From positions 1 through 55,670 of the forward strand of contig JAOARL010000005.1 in the NCBI GenBank assembly GCA_025210555.1: a stretch of 55,670 bases of DNA, given 5' to 3'. Of this stretch, positions 18,294 to 35,729 are shown one piece after another. The notes beneath the pieces are model-generated. The model saw only the letters and a list, made by a program, of their open reading frames with translations. It did not search any database and was not told where the DNA came from. Every line of letters starts with the position of its first letter. The first letter of the stretch is position 1. Made by a program: the position numbers and the translations under genes. The stretch comes from Clostridia bacterium. GTDB lineage: Bacteria > Bacillota > Clostridia > Lachnospirales > JAOARL01.

Positions 18294-18526
18294 ATTGTTA
18301 AAAGCAGAGATTAGGATAGTAATTATAAATTAAAGCTAAAGCGAGCTAGGGATAGTGTAAGCCTGGTAGTGGTTTTATAATGAAGTAACACCTAGGAGCA
18401 TTTATTCTGAAGTAGTAGTAGGAATAAACGGGTAAGTCCGTTAAAGCTATTAAATTAAGTAATAAATTTAGGTGGTACCGCGTATATACTCTTACGCCCT
18501 ATGATATAGGGAGTAGGAGTTTTTTA
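18294..18526 (+). ncRNA. T-box leader, asparagine specifier
   Basis: The leader before asnS shows the T-box sequence AGGTGGTACCGCG at 18470-18482; its TGGT should pair with the CCA end of uncharged tRNA. Stem I contains GCGAGC and the AGGGATAGTGTAAGCCTGGTA block. The probable specifier is AAC at 18387-18389 in GAAGTAACACC, an asparagine codon, which agrees with the downstream gene. A terminator hairpin (18488-18520) with a T tract ends it. Known mechanism: uncharged tRNA-Asn stabilises the antiterminator and turns asnS on. Confidence 0.92.
18488..18526 (+). terminator. T-box terminator hairpin
   Basis: ACTCTTAC-CCCTAT pairs with ATAGGG-GTAGGAGT (one mismatch, one G-U pair) and six T follow. 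Its left part is adjacent to the T-box sequence that forms the competing antiterminator. Confidence 0.88.
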
Positions 18527-18552: not shown

Positions 18553-19944
18553 ATGAAATTAACAACAGTTAGAAGTATTTACAAGGATTATGGTAAATAT
18601 GTAAACCAAGAAATCAGCATTGCTGGTTGGATTAGAAGTGTAAGAGCATCTAATAAATTTGGGTTCATGGAAATAAATGATGGGAGTTTCTTTTCAAATA
18701 TACAAGTAGTATTTAATGAAGATTTAGCAAATTTTGATGATTTATCAAAGCTTACTATAAGCTCATCTGTAACTGTAGTTGGGACTTTAGTTGCAACGCC
18801 AGATGCAAAACAAGATTTTGAAATTCAAGCAAAAGAAGTAATAGTAGAAGGTATCGCAGATAGCTCATACCCATTACAAAAGAAAAGACATACATTTGAG
18901 TATTTAAGAACAATTGCTCACTTAAGACCAAGAAGTAATACATTCTCAGCAGTATTTAGAGTTAGATCTTTAGCTGCTTATGCAATTCATAAGTTTTTTA
19001 ACGAAAAAGATTTTGTACATGTGCATACTCCAATGATTACAGGAAGTGACTGTGAAGGCGCAGGAGAAATGTTTAGACTTACAACTCTAGATTTAACGGA
19101 TGTTCCTTTAACTGAAGATGGTAAGGTTGATGTTTCTAAAGACTTCTTTAAAAAAGAAACTAACTTAACAGTTAGTGGGCAATTATCAGCTGAAACATAC
19201 AGTCATGCATTTAGAGATGTTTATACTTTTGGACCTACATTTAGAGCTGAAAACTCAAATACACCAAGACATGCTGCAGAGTTCTGGATGATGGAACCTG
19301 AGATGTCATTCTGTGATTTAGAAGGTAATATGGACAATGCAGAAGAAATGATTAAGTATGTTACAAAGTATGTAATGGATAATGCTCCTGAAGAATTAGA
19401 GTTCTTCAATAAGTTCATTGACAAAACATTACTTGAGAGATTAAACAATCTTGTAAATAGTGAATTCGGAAGAGTTACTTATACAGAAGCAATTGAAATA
19501 TTAAAAGCTTCTGGAAAAGAATTTGAATATCCAGTAGAGTGGGGTATTGATTTACAAACAGAACATGAAAGATTCTTAGCTGAAGAGCATTTTAAAAGAC
19601 CAGTGTTTGTTACTAACTATCCAAAAGAAATCAAAGCTTTCTATATGAGACTTGATGAAGATAGTAAGACAGTTGCAGCAATGGACCTTTTAGCACCAGG
19701 AATTGGAGAAATGATTGGTGGAAGTCAAAGGGAAGAGAGACTAGATGTCTTAGAATCTAGAATTAAAGAATTAGGATTAAATGAAGAAGATTACTGGTGG
19801 TACTTAGATCTTAGAAAATTTGGTACAGTTAAGCATTCAGGATATGGATTAGGGTTTGCTAGACTTGTTAGATATTTAACAGGTATGGAAAATATAAGAG
19901 ACGTAATACCATTCCCAAGAACTACTGGTAGCGCAGAATTTTAA
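18553..19944 (+). CDS. asnS: Asparaginyl-tRNA synthetase
   Basis: This class II synthetase charges tRNA-Asn. The 463-residue protein has the N-terminal OB-fold anticodon-binding domain (about 1-110), motif 2 with [15 protein letters not shown], where the asparagine-specific reading replaces the aspartate form, and motif 3 in [11 protein letters not shown]. It ends [12 protein letters not shown], typical for AsnS. The T-box with an AAC specifier supports the identity. Confidence 0.97.
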
Positions 19945-23979: not shown

Positions 23980-24465
23980 TCAAACTAATTTATTTGTTAA
24001 TCCTATAAGAGTCTTGCCATCGTCATCTTTAACAACTTCTGATATAATCTTAAATCCTGCTTTTAAATGAGCTTTTATACTTACTTCATTAATATCAGGA
24101 TTTATATATACTGCAGAAACACATTTGAAATTTTCTTTTGCAAAATTAAGAAGTTCTAATGCATAGCCATTTCTAAAATGATCTGGATGAATACCAAGCC
24201 CACTTATATATTTATAACCTTTACAGTAGTCAATTAAACTTTTAGCAACATTCTTGCTGCAAATCTCGTCTTCAATACAGATGTATCCAGTAACTTTTGA
24301 ATTTTTGTCTTCATATACATAGATGTATTCTATATCCTCTTTAAGATCTTCTTCACTATATGCACCATAGAAAAATCCGTTTTCCTTATTTTCCAGTAGC
24401 ATTATTCTATTTTCTATTTCTAATATTGATTTAACGTCGTTTTTGTTTGCTTTTCTAATACTCAT
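23980..24465 (-). CDS. GNAT-family N-acetyltransferase
   Basis: This 161-residue enzyme transfers acetyl groups from acetyl-CoA to an amine. Motif A is clear: G-L-G-I-H-P-D-H-F-R-N-G-Y-A-L-E-L-L, with R-N-G-Y-A as the pyrophosphate-binding loop. Motif B with a late asparagine (N-P-D-I-N-E-V-S-I-K-A-H-L-K-A-G-F) resembles RimI-type enzymes. The target is unknown. It is transcribed after the two small membrane protein genes but a terminator separates them, so it is likely an independent unit. Confidence 0.88.
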   Translation of the reverse strand: MSIRKANKNDVKSILEIENRIMLLENKENGFFYGAYSEEDLKEDIEYIYVYEDKNSKVTGYICIEDEICSKNVAKSLIDYCKGYKYISGLGIHPDHFRNGYALELLNFAKENFKCVSAVYINPDINEVSIKAHLKAGFKIISEVVKDDDGKTLIGLTNKLV

Positions 24466-24494: not shown

Positions 24495-24537
24495 TAAAAA
24501 AATAGACTTGCCACTACTTTTGAGGCAAGCTATTTAT
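24495..24537 (-). terminator. Terminator after the small membrane protein pair
   Basis: On the minus strand TTGCC pairs with GGCAA, extended by ATAG and CTAT, and seven T follow. The stem overlaps the last codons of the 66-residue protein gene. Confidence 0.75.
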
Positions 24538-24714
24538 AAATGCTGCAATGTTGTCATAAAACATAACTATGATAGATATTATAATAGTAAATAACATATA
24601 TATCTCCAAGTTTAAATTCCCAAATGTAGCTTTTAAAGTTCTTACGATTATAAATACAACTCCAAATATAAGCACAACAGCTGGTAGTAGTCCTAAAGTA
24701 ATACTTAAATCCAT
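24514..24714 (-). CDS. Small two-helix membrane protein, 66 aa
   Basis: Two hydrophobic helices (about 5-27 and 37-58) are joined by a short polar loop. The end D-N-I-A-A-F-I-N-S-L-P matches D-N-F-L-N-F-I-T-S-L-G of the next protein, so the two are probably paralogues. The size and topology recall holins, but no lysis gene is near and no family is recognised. GGAG precedes the start. It lies 27 bases after its sister gene. Confidence 0.65.
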   Translation of the reverse strand: MDLSITLGLLPAVVLIFGVVFIIVRTLKATFGNLNLEIYMLFTIIISIIVMFYDNIAAFINSLPQK

Positions 24715-24741
24715 GATTAATAACTCCTTTAATTTTTAATA

Positions 24742-24936
24742 TTAGCCTAAACTAGTTATGAAATTTAAAAAATTGTCATTTGTTAATAGGAAAAATGCCG
24801 CAATTAATATAAGTATAAACAATCCTAGTTTTGATTCAATTCTAGATAAGAAATGAATTAAAAATGGGATTAAGATTATACCTGCAACAGTTACTATAAC
24901 AATGTTGAACGTAACTTGATTTACAAAATCAGTCAT
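24742..24936 (-). CDS. Small two-helix membrane protein, 64 aa
   Basis: This is the first gene of the pair. It has hydrophobic helices at about 10-30 and 38-56 and the same D-N-x-x-x-F-I-x-S-L tail as its partner. Function is unknown; paired small membrane proteins of equal length often act as hetero-oligomers, which is only an analogy here. A GAAGGTG ribosome site lies before the ATG. Confidence 0.65.
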   Translation of the reverse strand: MTDFVNQVTFNIVIVTVAGIILIPFLIHFLSRIESKLGLFILILIAAFFLLTNDNFLNFITSLG

Positions 24937-25069
24937 ATTATCACCTTCTTATGTTTCTTCCTAATTTAATTATATCAAATGCTGTATTCATATTCAATTG
25001 TATATTGATTGTAATTGTTTTAAATTCTAAAAGATGTTATAATCGTAATACTGAATGGAGGTAGATAAT

Positions 25070-31422: not shown

Positions 31423-32040
31423 ATGAAAGAAACTTTAAGCGATAAACAACAGAAAATACTTGATTTTCTTAAATCAGAGATTAAATCAAAAGGTTATCCA
31501 CCTTCAGTAAGAGAAATTTGTTTAGCTGTTGGACTTAGATCTACTTCTACAGTTCATGGACATTTAGAGAGATTAGAAAAAAAAGGATATATTAGAAAAA
31601 GTGCTTCTAAAACAAGAGCTATTGAAATACTTGAAGATAACTTCTACTCTAATGAACTTTCTAAAGAGTATTTAGATGTTCCTGTAGTTGGTAAAATAAC
31701 TGCTGGCGAACCAATATTAGCAGTTGAAAATGTTGAAGATCACTTCCCTATTCCAGTCGATTATGCTAATAATAATGATGTATTTATGTTAAAAGTTAGT
31801 GGAGATAGTATGATAGAAGCAGGAATATACGATGGTGACTTAATATTAGTTAATAAGCAAAACACCGCTAGAAATGGAGAAATTGTTGTTGCTTTAATAG
31901 AAGATTCAGCAACTGTTAAAACTTTTTATAAAGAACAAGATCATTTTAGATTACAACCTGAAAACTCTAGTTTAGATCCTATAATTGTAAAAGATTTAGA
32001 AATACTTGGAACTGTATCAGGACTATTTAGAAAATACTAA
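31423..32040 (+). CDS. lexA: SOS repressor LexA
   Basis: LexA represses DNA-damage genes and self-cleaves when RecA filaments form. The 205-residue protein has the N-terminal winged helix (K-Q-Q-K-I-L-D-F-L, then [21 protein letters not shown]). The cleavage site is A94-G95, and the catalytic pair is S129 (G-D-S-M-I) and K166 (A-T-V-K-T). AGGAGG precedes the ATG. It is divergent from the LysM gene across LexA boxes. Confidence 0.97.
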
Positions 32041-32067
32041 AGAGTAATAAATAATTACTCTTTTTTT
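32039..32067 (+). terminator. Terminator after lexA
   Basis: AAAGAGTAAT pairs with ATTACTCTTT over five bases, then more T. The -35 box of the next promoter starts two bases after it. Confidence 0.85.
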
Positions 32068-32068
32068 A

Positions 32069-32097
32069 TTGACTTAACTCTTATAATACCCTATCAT
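32069..32097 (+). promoter_or_regulatory. Promoter, leader unit 1
   Basis: TTGACT (32069-32074), exactly 17 bases and TATCAT (32092-32097). The same -35 box and spacing recur in unit 2. Confidence 0.75.
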
Positions 32098-32117
32098 TAT
32101 ATATAGAGATATTAAAT

Positions 32118-32133
32118 TTATCAGGGGTGATAA
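32118..32133 (+). promoter_or_regulatory. SD-in-loop hairpin, unit 1
   Basis: TTATCA and TGATAA can pair and leave GGGG, the Shine-Dalgarno of the leader ORF, in the loop. This exposes or masks the ribosome site and looks like a binding site for a regulator. Unit 2 keeps the same design with a G-U pair. Confidence 0.5.
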
Positions 32134-32135
32134 TA

Positions 32136-32216
32136 ATGTATCAAAATACTGAAAAATTTAATAATAAATTCAACAATATTCACAGGGACTTTTGCGCTCT
32201 GTGTTTTTTTGTATAA
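32136..32216 (+). CDS. Leader ORF 1, 26 codons, Asn-rich
   Basis: An ATG after GGGGTGAT opens a frame of 26 codons. The first part, N-T-E-K-F-N-N, is shared with leader ORF 2; six of the first fifteen residues are Asn. The rest of the frame crosses the terminator hairpin and stops just past its T tract. Ribosomes reading it would disturb the hairpin. It is likely a regulatory leader, not a functional protein. Confidence 0.55.
   Translation: MYQNTEKFNNKFNNIHRDFCALCFFV
32181..32210 (+). terminator. Attenuator-like terminator 1
   Basis: CACAGGG pairs with CTCTGTG, one G-U pair, then seven T. The next gene starts 28 bases later with no room for a promoter between, so expression of that gene requires read-through. 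Confidence 0.75.
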
Positions 32217-32237
32217 AAAATTAAAGGAGAGATTACA

Positions 32238-32621
32238 ATGAAAAATGGAAAACCAAAGGAACATCTAAATTTCACATCAGCTATTAATAATACTATGCTA
32301 TTTGAACTTGATAAGTATTATCATGATGAAGTTGTTGATTTGATTTTAGAGAACTCAGATGAAGAACAAGCTATTACTAATTCAGCAAGTACTAAAGATG
32401 AGTTAAAAGACATTGAAAATGCTTTGAAAAACGGCTCTATTACACCTAGTGAAGCTATTGAAATTTTCGGTTATGACGTAATAGATCAACTTATTGCTTC
32501 AGCAGAAAATAGCCCTATTGTTGAAGAAATTATACCTGTAGCTGTTCAAGCAGGATGCGGTATTGATAGAAATATTATTAATCATTACTTAGATAATTCA
32601 GGTTTAGATTTTAAAGTGTAA
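32238..32621 (+). CDS. Unknown small protein A of a duplicated pair, 127 aa
   Basis: Residues about 60-125 align with the end of the protein encoded at 32815: A-L-K-N-G-S-I-T-P-S-E-A-I-E-I-F-G-Y-D, then P-V-x-x-G-x-G-I near the end. The N-terminal half (1-55) is not alike. The protein is acidic and helical, has one cysteine and no signal peptide or membrane segment. I know no family. AAGGAGAG lies before the ATG. The gene is fed through a terminator from a promoter shared with the 26-codon leader. It lies directly after lexA, but has no LexA box. Confidence 0.75.
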   Translation: MKNGKPKEHLNFTSAINNTMLFELDKYYHDEVVDLILENSDEEQAITNSASTKDELKDIENALKNGSITPSEAIEIFGYDVIDQLIASAENSPIVEEIIPVAVQAGCGIDRNIINHYLDNSGLDFKV

Positions 32622-32639
32622 TTTTTTTAGTTTTTACTA

Positions 32640-32668
32640 TTGACTAAATTGTCAAAATACTCTATGAT
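32640..32668 (+). promoter_or_regulatory. Promoter, leader unit 2
   Basis: TTGACT (32640-32645), exactly 17 bases and TATGAT (32663-32668). It is the counterpart of the unit 1 promoter. Confidence 0.75.
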
Positions 32669-32688
32669 TATATATGTACATTAAATTT

Positions 32689-32704
32689 TTATCAGGGGCG
32701 GTAA
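32689..32704 (+). promoter_or_regulatory. SD-in-loop hairpin, unit 2
   Basis: TTATC and GGTAA can form five pairs, one of them T-G (U-G), leaving the GGGG ribosome site in the loop. The stem sequence differs from unit 1 at two positions while one change keeps pairing. Confidence 0.45.
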
Positions 32705-32706
32705 CA

Positions 32707-32751
32707 ATGAATTTAAACACTGAAAAATTTAATAATAATTTAGAATATTAA
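32707..32751 (+). CDS. Leader ORF 2, 14 codons, Asn-rich
   Basis: ATG follows GGGGCGG and opens M-N-L-N-T-E-K-F-N-N-N-L-E-Y; six of fourteen residues are Asn. It shares N-T-E-K-F-N-N with leader 1. The stop codon touches the first base of the attenuator stem, so a terminating ribosome would cover the hairpin's left arm. Confidence 0.55.
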   Translation: MNLNTEKFNNNLEY

Positions 32752-32782
32752 ACACAGGCATAGCTATGCCCTGTGTTTTTTT
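32752..32782 (+). terminator. Attenuator-like terminator 2
   Basis: ACACAG-GCAT pairs with ATGC-CTGTGT with one bulged C and an AGCT tip, followed by seven T. It is stronger than terminator 1 and again stands between promoter and gene. Confidence 0.82.
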
Positions 32783-32814
32783 GTACATAAAATAATTTAA
32801 AGGAGAGATTTGAA

Positions 32815-33162
32815 ATGTGTGATGTAAAAAAAATTTGTAAAGAGTACGAAGGCAACCCTGAAGCTGCAGCTGATGCAATAATTCGCGAAGATAACTTGGA
32901 TCGTTTATATGAAATTGGAATGGAAGTTGTTAGTCTTATGAATCAAAAAAAGATTACAGATGTTAATAAAGGAATTGCTTTAGCTGCAAAAAATGGTGCT
33001 ATAACACTTGATGAAATAACTGAGGCATTTGGTTTTGATATAGGGAATGATTTATGTATATGCTCTACTAAAAGTGAACTTAAAGAAACGGTATACATGC
33101 CTGTTACTCCTGGATTTGGGATAAATCCTAGTATTGCTAAAGAATATAGCAATGATCTTTAA
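32815..33162 (+). CDS. Unknown small protein B of a duplicated pair, 115 aa
   Basis: The last 65 residues are homologous to protein A: A-A-K-N-G-A-I-T-L-D-E-I-T-E-A-F-G-F-D, then S-x-x-x-E and P-V-T-P-G-F-G-I-N. The N-terminal half is different: acidic helix with two cysteines near the start. No signal peptide or membrane segment is visible. Upstream lies the second leader unit; a strong bidirectional terminator follows. Function is unknown. The common C-terminal domain is the only shared part of A and B and is probably their working part. Confidence 0.75.
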   Translation: MCDVKKICKEYEGNPEAAADAIIREDNLDRLYEIGMEVVSLMNQKKITDVNKGIALAAKNGAITLDEITEAFGFDIGNDLCICSTKSELKETVYMPVTPGFGINPSIAKEYSNDL

Positions 33163-33163
33163 A

Positions 33164-33203
33164 AAAATAACCAACTACTATACTGTAGTTGGTTATTTTT
33201 TTA
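33164..33203. terminator. Bidirectional terminator
   Basis: AAAATAACCAACTAC pairs with GTAGTTGGTTATTTT. It ends the duplicated pair and the long mutS-mutL operon coming from the right. Confidence 0.9.
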
Positions 33204-34479
33204 TTGTTATTAAATTTCTATTTATCATTTCTTGTAATGCTATCATTATTCCAAGTTTTGCATGACTATAATTAAGTCCACCTTGAAGATAAACATCATA
33301 TGGTTCTTTAATTGGTGCATCTGCACTAAGCTCTATAGAAGAACCCTGTACAAAAGCTCCTGCAGCCATTATAACCTCACTGTCATAACCTGGCATATCC
33401 CATGGCTGTGGCTGCACATGTGAATCTATTGCTGCACCCTTTTGAATTCCTTGGCAGAATGCAATTACTTTTTCTGCATTTTTAAATCTAATAGCTTGAA
33501 CAATATCACTTCTCTTATCTGTTGACTTAGGATTTGTTTCATACCCTAGATTTTCAAACATCTTAGATGCCAATAAAGCTCCTTTAACACTACTATTGAC
33601 AACTTGTGGTGCACTAAATAACCCTTGATAGAATGATTTAATTACTCCAAGTGATGGCCCTACTTCTTTACCTTGTCCTGGAACAGTTAATCTATATGAA
33701 GCATTTTCTACATATTCAGATTTACCTGCTATATATCCTCCAACTGGAGCTAAACCTCCACCAGGATTTTTTATTAATGATCCAACAACTAAGTCAGCAC
33801 CTATTTCACTAGGTTCTTTGTAATCTACAAATTCACCATAGCAATTATCTACCATGATAATCAAATCTTCTCTAATACCCTTTATAAACTTTATTAATTC
33901 TTCTATTTTTTCAATGGTGAAACTATCTCTAAACTCATATCCTTTTGATCTTTGAATTGCAATAAGTTTTGTTCTATCATTTATTGATGATTCGATTTTA
34001 TCAAAATCAAAAGAACCATCCGGCTTAAGATCAACTTGGCTATATGTAATTCCATATTCTTTAAGTGATCCCTTACTTTCCTTAATACCTATTACTTTTT
34101 GTAATGTATCATACGGAGCTCCTGCTGGTGATAATATTTCATCACCAGGTCTTAAATTTCCTGATAAAGCAACAGTCAGTGCATGAGTACCAGATATAAT
34201 TTGTGGCCTAACTAGTGCATCTTCAGTCTTAAACACTTCTGCATAGACTTTTTCAATAGTATCTCGCCCTAAATCATCATAACCATAACCTGTAGCTGTA
34301 TTAAAGTGCATTTCACTTATCCTATTATTTTGAAAAGCTGCAATTACTTTCAACTGATTGTAATCAGTTATTTTATCGATATCTGTAAATTTATCTTTTA
34401 TTTCTTCTTCAGCTCTATTTGTATATTCTATAACATCTTCTGTTAAGTTATATTTATCTTTTAATAATTCATTTAACAT
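33193..34479 (-). CDS. PLP-dependent methionine gamma-lyase family protein
   Basis: This 428-residue protein belongs to the PLP fold-type I group annotated as methionine gamma-lyase or aluminium resistance protein, common in Firmicutes next to miaA. The PLP region is visible: D-N-C-Y-G-E-F before G-S-L-I-K-N-P-G-G-G, with the Schiff-base lysine near residue 238. The true reaction is unproven. The ATG at 34479 is set by GAGGAA, and its codons begin within the end of the MazG-like gene's downstream region. It is the last gene of the operon. Confidence 0.87.
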   Translation of the reverse strand: MLNELLKDKYNLTEDVIEYTNRAEEEIKDKFTDIDKITDYNQLKVIAAFQNNRISEMHFNTATGYGYDDLGRDTIEKVYAEVFKTEDALVRPQIISGTHALTVALSGNLRPGDEILSPAGAPYDTLQKVIGIKESKGSLKEYGITYSQVDLKPDGSFDFDKIESSINDRTKLIAIQRSKGYEFRDSFTIEKIEELIKFIKGIREDLIIMVDNCYGEFVDYKEPSEIGADLVVGSLIKNPGGGLAPVGGYIAGKSEYVENASYRLTVPGQGKEVGPSLGVIKSFYQGLFSAPQVVNSSVKGALLASKMFENLGYETNPKSTDKRSDIVQAIRFKNAEKVIAFCQGIQKGAAIDSHVQPQPWDMPGYDSEVIMAAGAFVQGSSIELSADAPIKEPYDVYLQGGLNYSHAKLGIMIALQEMINRNLITIKK

Positions 34480-34480
34480 T

Positions 34481-34786
34481 TTATTCCTCAACCTTCAGCT
34501 TAATCTTAAGTCCTTCAACTTCTTTATAAACTCTTTTTTCATTTTTGTCCATTTTATTTGTTATTTCATCATGCAAATTATAACCTAAAATTTCGGATAG
34601 ACCTAAAAGAAATATTGCTACATCTGCAAGTTCTTCTCCAAGATCGTCTTTATTTTTAGTATATGCTTCATATGCTTCAGCCATTTCACCATGCATCATA
34701 CAAAACTCATGCTCTACATTAGTAACATTAAATCCTTTATTAATCTTATTTTCATATGCTCTTTTTTGCATCTCTTCTAAAGTCAT
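34481..34786 (-). CDS. MazG-like nucleotide pyrophosphohydrolase
   Basis: The 101-residue protein has the MazG-type E-x-x-E and E-x-x-D metal site (H-G-E-M-A-E-A-Y-E and G-E-E-L-A-D-V-A-I-F), so it probably hydrolyses an NTP or modified NTP to the monophosphate. It is short, like the single-domain dimeric forms. GGAGGT, partly within the miaA stop region, sets the start at 34786, one base after the miaA stop. Housecleaning of damaged nucleotides fits a mismatch-repair operon, but that is inference. Confidence 0.83.
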   Translation of the reverse strand: MTLEEMQKRAYENKINKGFNVTNVEHEFCMMHGEMAEAYEAYTKNKDDLGEELADVAIFLLGLSEILGYNLHDEITNKMDKNEKRVYKEVEGLKIKLKVEE

Positions 34787-34787
34787 C

Positions 34788-35729
34788 TTAGTTACCTCCA
34801 TATATTTGCAACATTTTAGCAATAATGTCATCTAGCTTAAATTCTAGCTCATCAACTTCTATCCAAATAACATTTTTTTCTCTTCTAAACCATGTTAATT
34901 GCCTCTTTGCAAATTTTCTAGTATTTTGTTTAAGTACTTCTATCATTCTTTCGTAACTTACGTTACCTTCTATATAGTCAATTACTTCTTTATAACCAAT
35001 TCCTTGCATTGAATTTAGGTTTTTATTATATTTTTTATTTAGCTTTTCCACTTCTTTAAGTAAGCCCATATCAAACATAATATCTACCCTCATGTTAATT
35101 CTATCATAAAGTAAATCTCTATCTTTACACGTTAAGACAAAGAAAGTTAAATCATATGGACTTTCTTTAGATTCCTCTTGTTCCCTATTATGCTCAGATA
35201 TAGGAGCATTATGTATGTCATAGTACTCTAAAGCTCTAATAACGCGCCTTATATTATTAGGATGAAGTTTATCATACGATTCTTTATCTATATCTTCTAA
35301 AAGGCTATGGACATATTCATTCCCCTTTTCATTAGCTAATTCAAAATATTTATCTCTTATTTCTTGATTTCCTTCTTCTTCATTTTTAAAATCTATATCA
35401 TATATTATAGCTTGAATATAAAAACCTGTTCCACCTACTAATATAGGCACTTTTCCCTTACTATGAATTTCATCTATATAAGCTTTTACTTTATCTTTAA
35501 ACATTACAACATTAACTTCATCGTCTGGATTTACTTCATCTACCATATAATGTTTTATTCCTTGCATTTCTTCTTCAGTTACCTTTGCTGTTCCAATATT
35601 CATTTCCTTATATAATTGCATTGAATCTATTGATATTATTTCGCCATTTATATTTTTAGCAAGTTCAACAGATGAAGCTGTCTTACCAACAGCTGTTGGC
35701 CCTGCTATAACTATTAATTTTTTCTTCAA
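34788..35729 (-). CDS. miaA: tRNA dimethylallyltransferase MiaA
   Basis: MiaA adds a dimethylallyl group to A37 of tRNAs reading UNN codons. The 313-residue protein shows the P-loop G-P-T-A-V-G-K-T at residues 9-16, D-S-M-Q-L-Y with the catalytic aspartate, and a Q-x-x-x-R-x-x-x-x-W-like region (K-R-Q-L-T-W-F-R-R) near the C-terminus. It follows mutL by 14 bases, a common Firmicute order. Confidence 0.97.
   Translation of the reverse strand: MKKKLIVIAGPTAVGKTASSVELAKNINGEIISIDSMQLYKEMNIGTAKVTEEEMQGIKHYMVDEVNPDDEVNVVMFKDKVKAYIDEIHSKGKVPILVGGTGFYIQAIIYDIDFKNEEEGNQEIRDKYFELANEKGNEYVHSLLEDIDKESYDKLHPNNIRRVIRALEYYDIHNAPISEHNREQEESKESPYDLTFFVLTCKDRDLLYDRINMRVDIMFDMGLLKEVEKLNKKYNKNLNSMQGIGYKEVIDYIEGNVSYERMIEVLKQNTRKFAKRQLTWFRREKNVIWIEVDELEFKLDDIIAKMLQIYGGN

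Follow-up and report, generated by a model that had tools for sequence, protein, structure and literature searches.

Two successive units, each made up of a promoter, a leader, an intrinsic terminator and a small protein-coding gene, lie between lexA and a convergent Met_gamma_lyase gene in the window investigated here, a stretch of 55,670 nt from a Clostridia bacterium. Based on comparison of their sequences, the two are a true tandem duplication of the whole promoter-leader-terminator-gene unit. It is plausible, although held at somewhat under even confidence, that each is a transcription-attenuation unit in which read-through is likely to come about through a ribosome on a leader ORF masking the terminator. 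The features of the locus are as follows.

31423-32040: lexA, with the Pfam domains LexA_DNA_bind and Peptidase_S24
32039-32067, +: lexA intrinsic terminator from the terminator scan, AAAGAGTAAT AAATA ATTACTCTTT and a T-run; hairpin -8.7 kcal/mol
32069-32097, +: promoter 1, TTGACT (32069-32074), 17-nt spacer, TATCAT (32092-32097); 10/12 consensus bases
32110-32163, +: leader hairpin 1 of the minimum-energy fold, arms 32110-32124 and 32149-32163, 93% complementary
32118-32138, +: unit 1 element, TTATCAGGGGTGATAATAATG
32136-32216, +: leader ORF 1, 26 aa, MYQNTEKFNNKFNNIHRDFCALCFFV, stop TAA at 32214-32216, with the SD AGGGGTGAT upstream
32181-32210, +: intrinsic terminator 1, stem 32181-32187/32197-32203, T7 at 32204-32210
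32224-32231, +: gene A SD, AAGGAGAG
32238-32621, +: gene A, encoding a 127-aa orphan protein
32640-32668, +: promoter 2, TTGACT (32640-32645), 17-nt spacer, TATGAT (32663-32668); 10/12 consensus bases
32680-32733, +: leader hairpin 2 of the minimum-energy fold, 5′ arm 32680-32695, 3′ arm 32720-32733
32689-32709, +: unit 2 element, TTATCAGGGGCGGTAACAATG
32707-32751, +: leader ORF 2, 14 aa, MNLNTEKFNNNLEY, stop TAA at 32749-32751
32752-32782, +: intrinsic terminator 2, a 10-bp stem with one bulge, hairpin 32752-32775, T7 at 32776-32782; -11.3 to -12.2 kcal/mol
32800-32807, +: gene B SD, AAGGAGAG
32815-33162, +: gene B, encoding a 115-aa orphan paralogue of A
33160-33203, no strand assigned: bidirectional terminator common to the gene B side and the convergent Met_gamma_lyase gene, a 19-bp perfect hairpin
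33193-34491, -: Met_gamma_lyase gene, convergent

Twin units and their uneven conservation

A sequence-only reading of this DNA had described twin units sharing one order of parts. Every part that it listed was located, including TTGACT promoters with a 17-nt spacer in both units where it had placed them, and the upstream regions of units 1 and 2 match with 77% identity over 174 nt (E 5.9e-29), which is more than chance. No further copy of the upstream region was found in the host genome, where nothing else comes close. From the positions of the -10 boxes, transcripts would start near 32104 in unit 1 and near 32675 in unit 2.

Identity between the units differs from part to part. In the promoters it is 6/6 for the -35 and 5/6 for the -10 box, around the leader SD and AUG it is 17/24, and it reaches 19/20 in the block encoding NTEKFNN and 8/8 in the gene SD. 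The terminators share 12/14 stem positions and the complete U-tract (7/7), with just 3/9 in the loop. Genes A and B, when codon-aligned, are 49% identical in DNA, and their proteins have about 30% identity over 93 columns (E 3e-9). This similarity is strongest in the C-terminal 65 residues, to which it had originally been confined; the alignment, however, spans slightly more than that domain. Because regulatory parts have been kept while the terminator loop and the genes have diverged, the leader appears to be conserved as a functional element and not merely as part of a recent whole-segment copy. Just two sequences of the unit are known, both in one genome.

Leader hairpin, leader ORFs and terminators

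In the minimum-energy folds of both leaders, most of the leader SD, together with the AUG, sits in the loop of a hairpin, which consists of a 10-11 bp helix plus an inner UCAG/CUGA-type helix. A hairpin with the SD in its loop had been proposed previously; the SD is mostly in a loop, but the proposed hairpin is not the minimum-energy fold, its 5′ arm pairing further downstream with the NTEKFNN codons. The longest helix is 10 bp in leader hairpin 1 (shuffle P 0.015) and 11 bp in leader hairpin 2 (shuffle P 0.008), and an equally long helix at the same geometry is present in 1.6% of AT-rich places in the window.

The 3′ arm of the leader hairpin is exactly the stretch encoding T-E-K-F-N. Between the units the NTEKFNN block is nucleotide-identical save for one synonymous change, and the leader codons beside it differ mostly non-synonymously. 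Since the same block is the 3′ arm of the hairpin, its common amino-acid sequence does not independently argue for a peptide, and base pairing would explain the conserved block equally well. Leader ORF 1 has a codon score of -0.42 bits/codon, which is not coding-like, and leader ORF 2 scores +0.16, although its 14 codons are too few for a judgement. Both units have the leader SD and AUG, while the reading frames diverge around a shared block that is also a helix arm. On this sequence comparison a leader peptide as such is unsupported: the N-T-E-K-F-N-N block noted in the sequence-only reading is indeed in both leaders, but the helix arm, the non-synonymous flanks and the non-coding score of leader 1 leave selection on the peptide without support. 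Attenuation by asparagine starvation was likewise rejected; each leader has about five Asn codons among its first 14, but the genome is AT-rich and there is no alternative pairing.

The terminator hairpins of the units (-7.8 to -12.2 kcal/mol) are good terminators, each of which sits in the 5′ leader of its gene, downstream of its own promoter. Only 13 nt in unit 1 and 17 nt in unit 2 separate the U-tract from the gene SD, too short for a promoter, and the earlier statement that a second promoter has no room there is borne out. The relation of the leader frames to the terminators was also described correctly: leader ORF 1 reads in frame through the stem of terminator 1, and the stop TAA of leader ORF 2 directly abuts the stem of terminator 2. 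The terminator scan found no terminator between gene A and unit 2, therefore read-through from unit 1 would run into unit 2 and meet terminator 2.

In a search for antiterminators, the longest upstream helix with the 5′ arm of the terminator was 4 bp in unit 1 and 3 bp in unit 2, where shuffles average 4.9 and 4.7. A classic antiterminator switch was rejected, no alternative pairing being better than in shuffled sequence. A long-range helix of the 5′ end with the stretch after the U-tract was rejected as well, its shuffle P values being 0.05 and 0.12, and 0.59 once unit 1 is trimmed to the probable transcription start.

A search with a leader RNA model recovered just two copies, both in the host genome. 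Its best matches elsewhere (L056, L134) were discarded since they resemble 3′ terminators of unrelated genes, as were the ten matches to TTATCAGGGGNGRTAA..ATG in IMG/VR, which are in unrelated contexts with no common flank. Rfam gave nothing credible at the twin-unit locus, and identity of the leaders as a riboswitch or T-box was rejected, with no match to a described RNA family. The sole Rfam match in the window is a T-box leader (18298-18504, +; RF00230, 120 bits) upstream of an AsnRS-like aminoacyl-tRNA synthetase gene (18553-19944). Also in the window, two small hydrophobic ORFs (24496-24940, -) lie ahead of a GNAT acetyltransferase gene (23980-24465, -). The latter of the two ORFs stops within an intrinsic terminator (24496-24535) located some 30 nt short of the acetyltransferase start; this arrangement is possibly an attenuated operon.

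Orphan proteins A and B and their genomic setting

Genes A and B score +0.37 and +0.385 bits/codon in frame, respectively, with the other five frames negative in each case; control genes of the window score +0.30 to +0.45. No family or convincing relative of either protein was found in Pfam, NCBIfam, PHROGs, PADLOC, or PDB, and neither matches a toxin or defence family. A two-sequence profile of A and B found no convincing relative in samples of 391 class genomes and 392 order genomes, nor did protein B in 295 order genomes. Nothing significant was obtained for A and B in IMG/VR and phages, or for protein B, searched there singly, in plasmids and genome_contigs. The weak hits examined from the class and order genomes, at chance-level E-values, were to unrelated proteins (ABC ATPase, TrkA-like, sigma factor), non-coding frames, or unplaced short ORFs (e.g. 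L130), and were rejected. AlphaFold models of the two are mostly helical and poor (mean pLDDT 51 and 50.5), which makes fold searches meaningless. Proteins A and B look like coding-like orphans that form a taxonomically restricted family within the sampled collections. As a weak guess, the product might be a small helical accessory or regulatory protein that is induced under translation stress.

The source genome is 1.56 Mb in size, 99.6% complete and the sole representative of its family in the genome collection searched. Along the locus, lexA is followed by unit 1 (gene A), unit 2 (gene B) and the convergent Met_gamma_lyase gene, and the lexA terminator forms the boundary between lexA and unit 1. 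Promoter 1 begins about 2 nt past the T-run of this terminator, such that unit 1 is packed against lexA (32040-32110). The closest relatives of the host LexA in genome_contigs, from uncultured Bacillota and Tissierellales MAGs, have 65-67% identity to it, and LexA of Tepidibacter species 59-60%.

Neither A nor B is encoded in any of 61 lexA neighbourhoods of other genomes, some of them incomplete (best tblastn E 0.31). For example, the convergent gene lies within a few bases of the end of lexA in one relative (L078), and in three others (L058, L059, L060) lexA is followed by another short gene and then by that convergent gene. Because these neighbourhoods are without A or B and other genes follow lexA there, the cassette is probably a lineage-specific insertion or birth between lexA and the Met_gamma_lyase gene, with tandem duplication afterwards. 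In relatives L060 and L078 the order is Met_gamma_lyase, hfq, miaA; here, a MazG-like gene (34481-34831, -) is in the place of hfq. No Hfq gene was found in the host genome.

Candidate control mechanism and known systems

Given this anatomy, each promoter would produce a leader RNA of about 105 nt that is predicted to end by default at the intrinsic terminator, and the downstream gene would be made from read-through only. Read-through would most likely occur if the leader ORF carries a ribosome at the time RNA polymerase is at the terminator. A ribosome within the unit 1 ORF, which runs through the stem, would block folding of the hairpin; one at the stop codon of unit 2 would cover the 5′ arm of the stem to the same effect, in both cases without an antiterminator. 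As there is no antiterminator, direct masking of the stem by the ribosome would be the simplest control. With the leader SD and AUG placed in its loop, the conserved hairpin probably governs the rate at which the leader is loaded. Genes A and B would thereby be coupled to the translation state, for example to initiation capacity or slowed elongation.

In E. coli, termination fell from about 90% to under 10% when a stop codon lay 5 bp ahead of the terminator, an effect that is gone beyond 27 nt (PMC4824070), and the geometry of unit 2, with its stop touching the stem, appears to fit this distance rule. Likewise, the pyrBI terminator is inside its leader ORF (PMC4824070, PMC3641672), a plan that the geometry of unit 1 appears to fit. 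Counting against occlusion, suppression is poor in E. coli for terminators less than 100 bp from a start codon (PMC4824070), and both unit terminators lie no more than about 75 nt from the leader AUG; RNA polymerase also outruns the ribosome in B. subtilis (PMC9226507). Because of this poor suppression near the AUG, and because the polymerase may outrun the ribosome, polymerase pausing or a stalled ribosome would be needed. Read-through would be expected just when leader initiation is very efficient, the polymerase pauses, or the leading ribosome stalls, with termination as the default otherwise. The original claim that leader translation prevents termination is therefore supported in part: the geometry is compatible with ribosome occlusion and there is no antiterminator, but leader 1 is non-coding-like and the peptide block is also a helix arm.

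Alternatively, a ligand, protein, or RNA might bind the conserved leader hairpin with its GGGG loop and alter terminator efficiency, the AUG in the loop being secondary or just lowering leader translation. The hairpin has been kept in both units despite an indel-shifted 5′ arm (helices of 10 and 11 bp, P 0.015 and 0.008), its 3′ arm block is 19/20 identical and the unit 1 leader peptide is not coding-like, all of which would suit such binding. We nevertheless regard it as unlikely: the hairpin and the terminator stem do not overlap and no switch between exclusive structures is visible, there is no Rfam family match, an SD and AUG with their spacing kept would be needless in a pure binding element, and 1.6% of AT-rich window places have an equally long helix at this geometry. 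The units might instead be free-standing small RNA genes, perhaps dual-function or type III antitoxin-like, each with an RNA of about 105 nt and with the protein gene fed by leaky read-through at a fixed ratio. Both units do look like complete sRNA-like transcription units with U7 tails, and the layout of promoter, RNA, terminator and small gene is reminiscent of type III toxin-antitoxin loci. Against this, an SD plus AUG is conserved in the RNA, the leader lacks a tandem-repeat RNA, having just a 25-nt imperfect 12-mer, neither A nor B resembles a toxin or defence family, and an Hfq-dependent sRNA is rejected on the lack of a detected Hfq gene in the host genome; such a role is improbable.

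It is also doubtful that the units are simply unregulated, with leaky terminators left over from the duplication, an upstream likeness due to gene conversion or to recent duplication with fast-evolving genes, and leader ORFs that are accidental in AT-rich DNA. There are just two copies in one genome, the two leader frames are of unequal length and are placed differently relative to the terminator, and codons outside the paired block differ mostly non-synonymously, as would be expected in that case. However, the differences cluster in the terminator loop and linker and spare the stems, U-tract, SD and promoter, a pattern that suggests selection on termination; under conversion, the loops should have become alike too.

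If leader translation does prevent termination without an antiterminator, a Clostridia-type bacterium would have a simple attenuator of the occlusion type, in a group where the polymerase may outrun the ribosome, going by B. subtilis. The twin units, with their different ORF-to-stem geometry, would be a natural experiment, and A and B a taxonomically restricted family tied to the translation state. If occlusion is untrue, they would be an ordinary orphan gene pair behind attenuator-like leaders. It seems unlikely, though conceivable, that the locus represents a mobile or duplicating cassette of attenuator plus small orphan protein, combining an antiterminator-free occlusion attenuator, a Bacillota-type host and a new stress-induced family in one family-level lineage.

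Among known systems, vmlR, hflXr/rli80, and cplR of Bacillota share the order of a short SD-led ORF, an intrinsic terminator and a gene, with a constitutive short transcript expected. The cplR uORF is likewise in a 5′ hairpin (PMC10201436) and the hflXr leader has 14 aa (PMC6310831), as does leader 2 here, whereas the antiterminator/anti-antiterminator pairings of these systems (PMC9226507, PMC6310831, PMC10201436) are absent from the twin units. Neither leader has an RLR-type stall motif, and A and B, for which Pfam, NCBIfam, and PDB gave no family, are not ABC-F, HflX or methyltransferase proteins. Type III toxin-antitoxin loci (ToxIN) are alike in promoter, RNA, terminator, and small gene, but here there is no tandem-repeat RNA and no ToxN/CptN/TenpN-like toxin. 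The tandem attenuators of Salmonella mgtCBR are similar in that a single locus contains multiple attenuation elements with short ORFs, but those serve one operon and answer to two signals, while here each unit precedes its own paralogous gene. The E. coli pyrBI leader resembles unit 1 in having an ORF through the intrinsic terminator and no antiterminator, such that a ribosome would block the hairpin. It differs in that no pyrimidine gene is present here, the downstream gene being an orphan, and in its uridine-rich pause stretch, which is not seen here between the leader AUG and the stem; in addition, the unit 2 ORF ends before the stem, and coupling may be weak in a Bacillota-type host. An absence of any described family with this plan had been claimed, and this holds for the proteins, for which no relatives were detected, whereas the control plan is already known from pyrBI, vmlR, hflXr, and cplR. 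By analogy, that plan would fall among the ribosome-sensitive attenuators, nearest to pyrBI, a principle already known; the novelty lies in the two orphan proteins and in the duplication of an entire unit in tandem.
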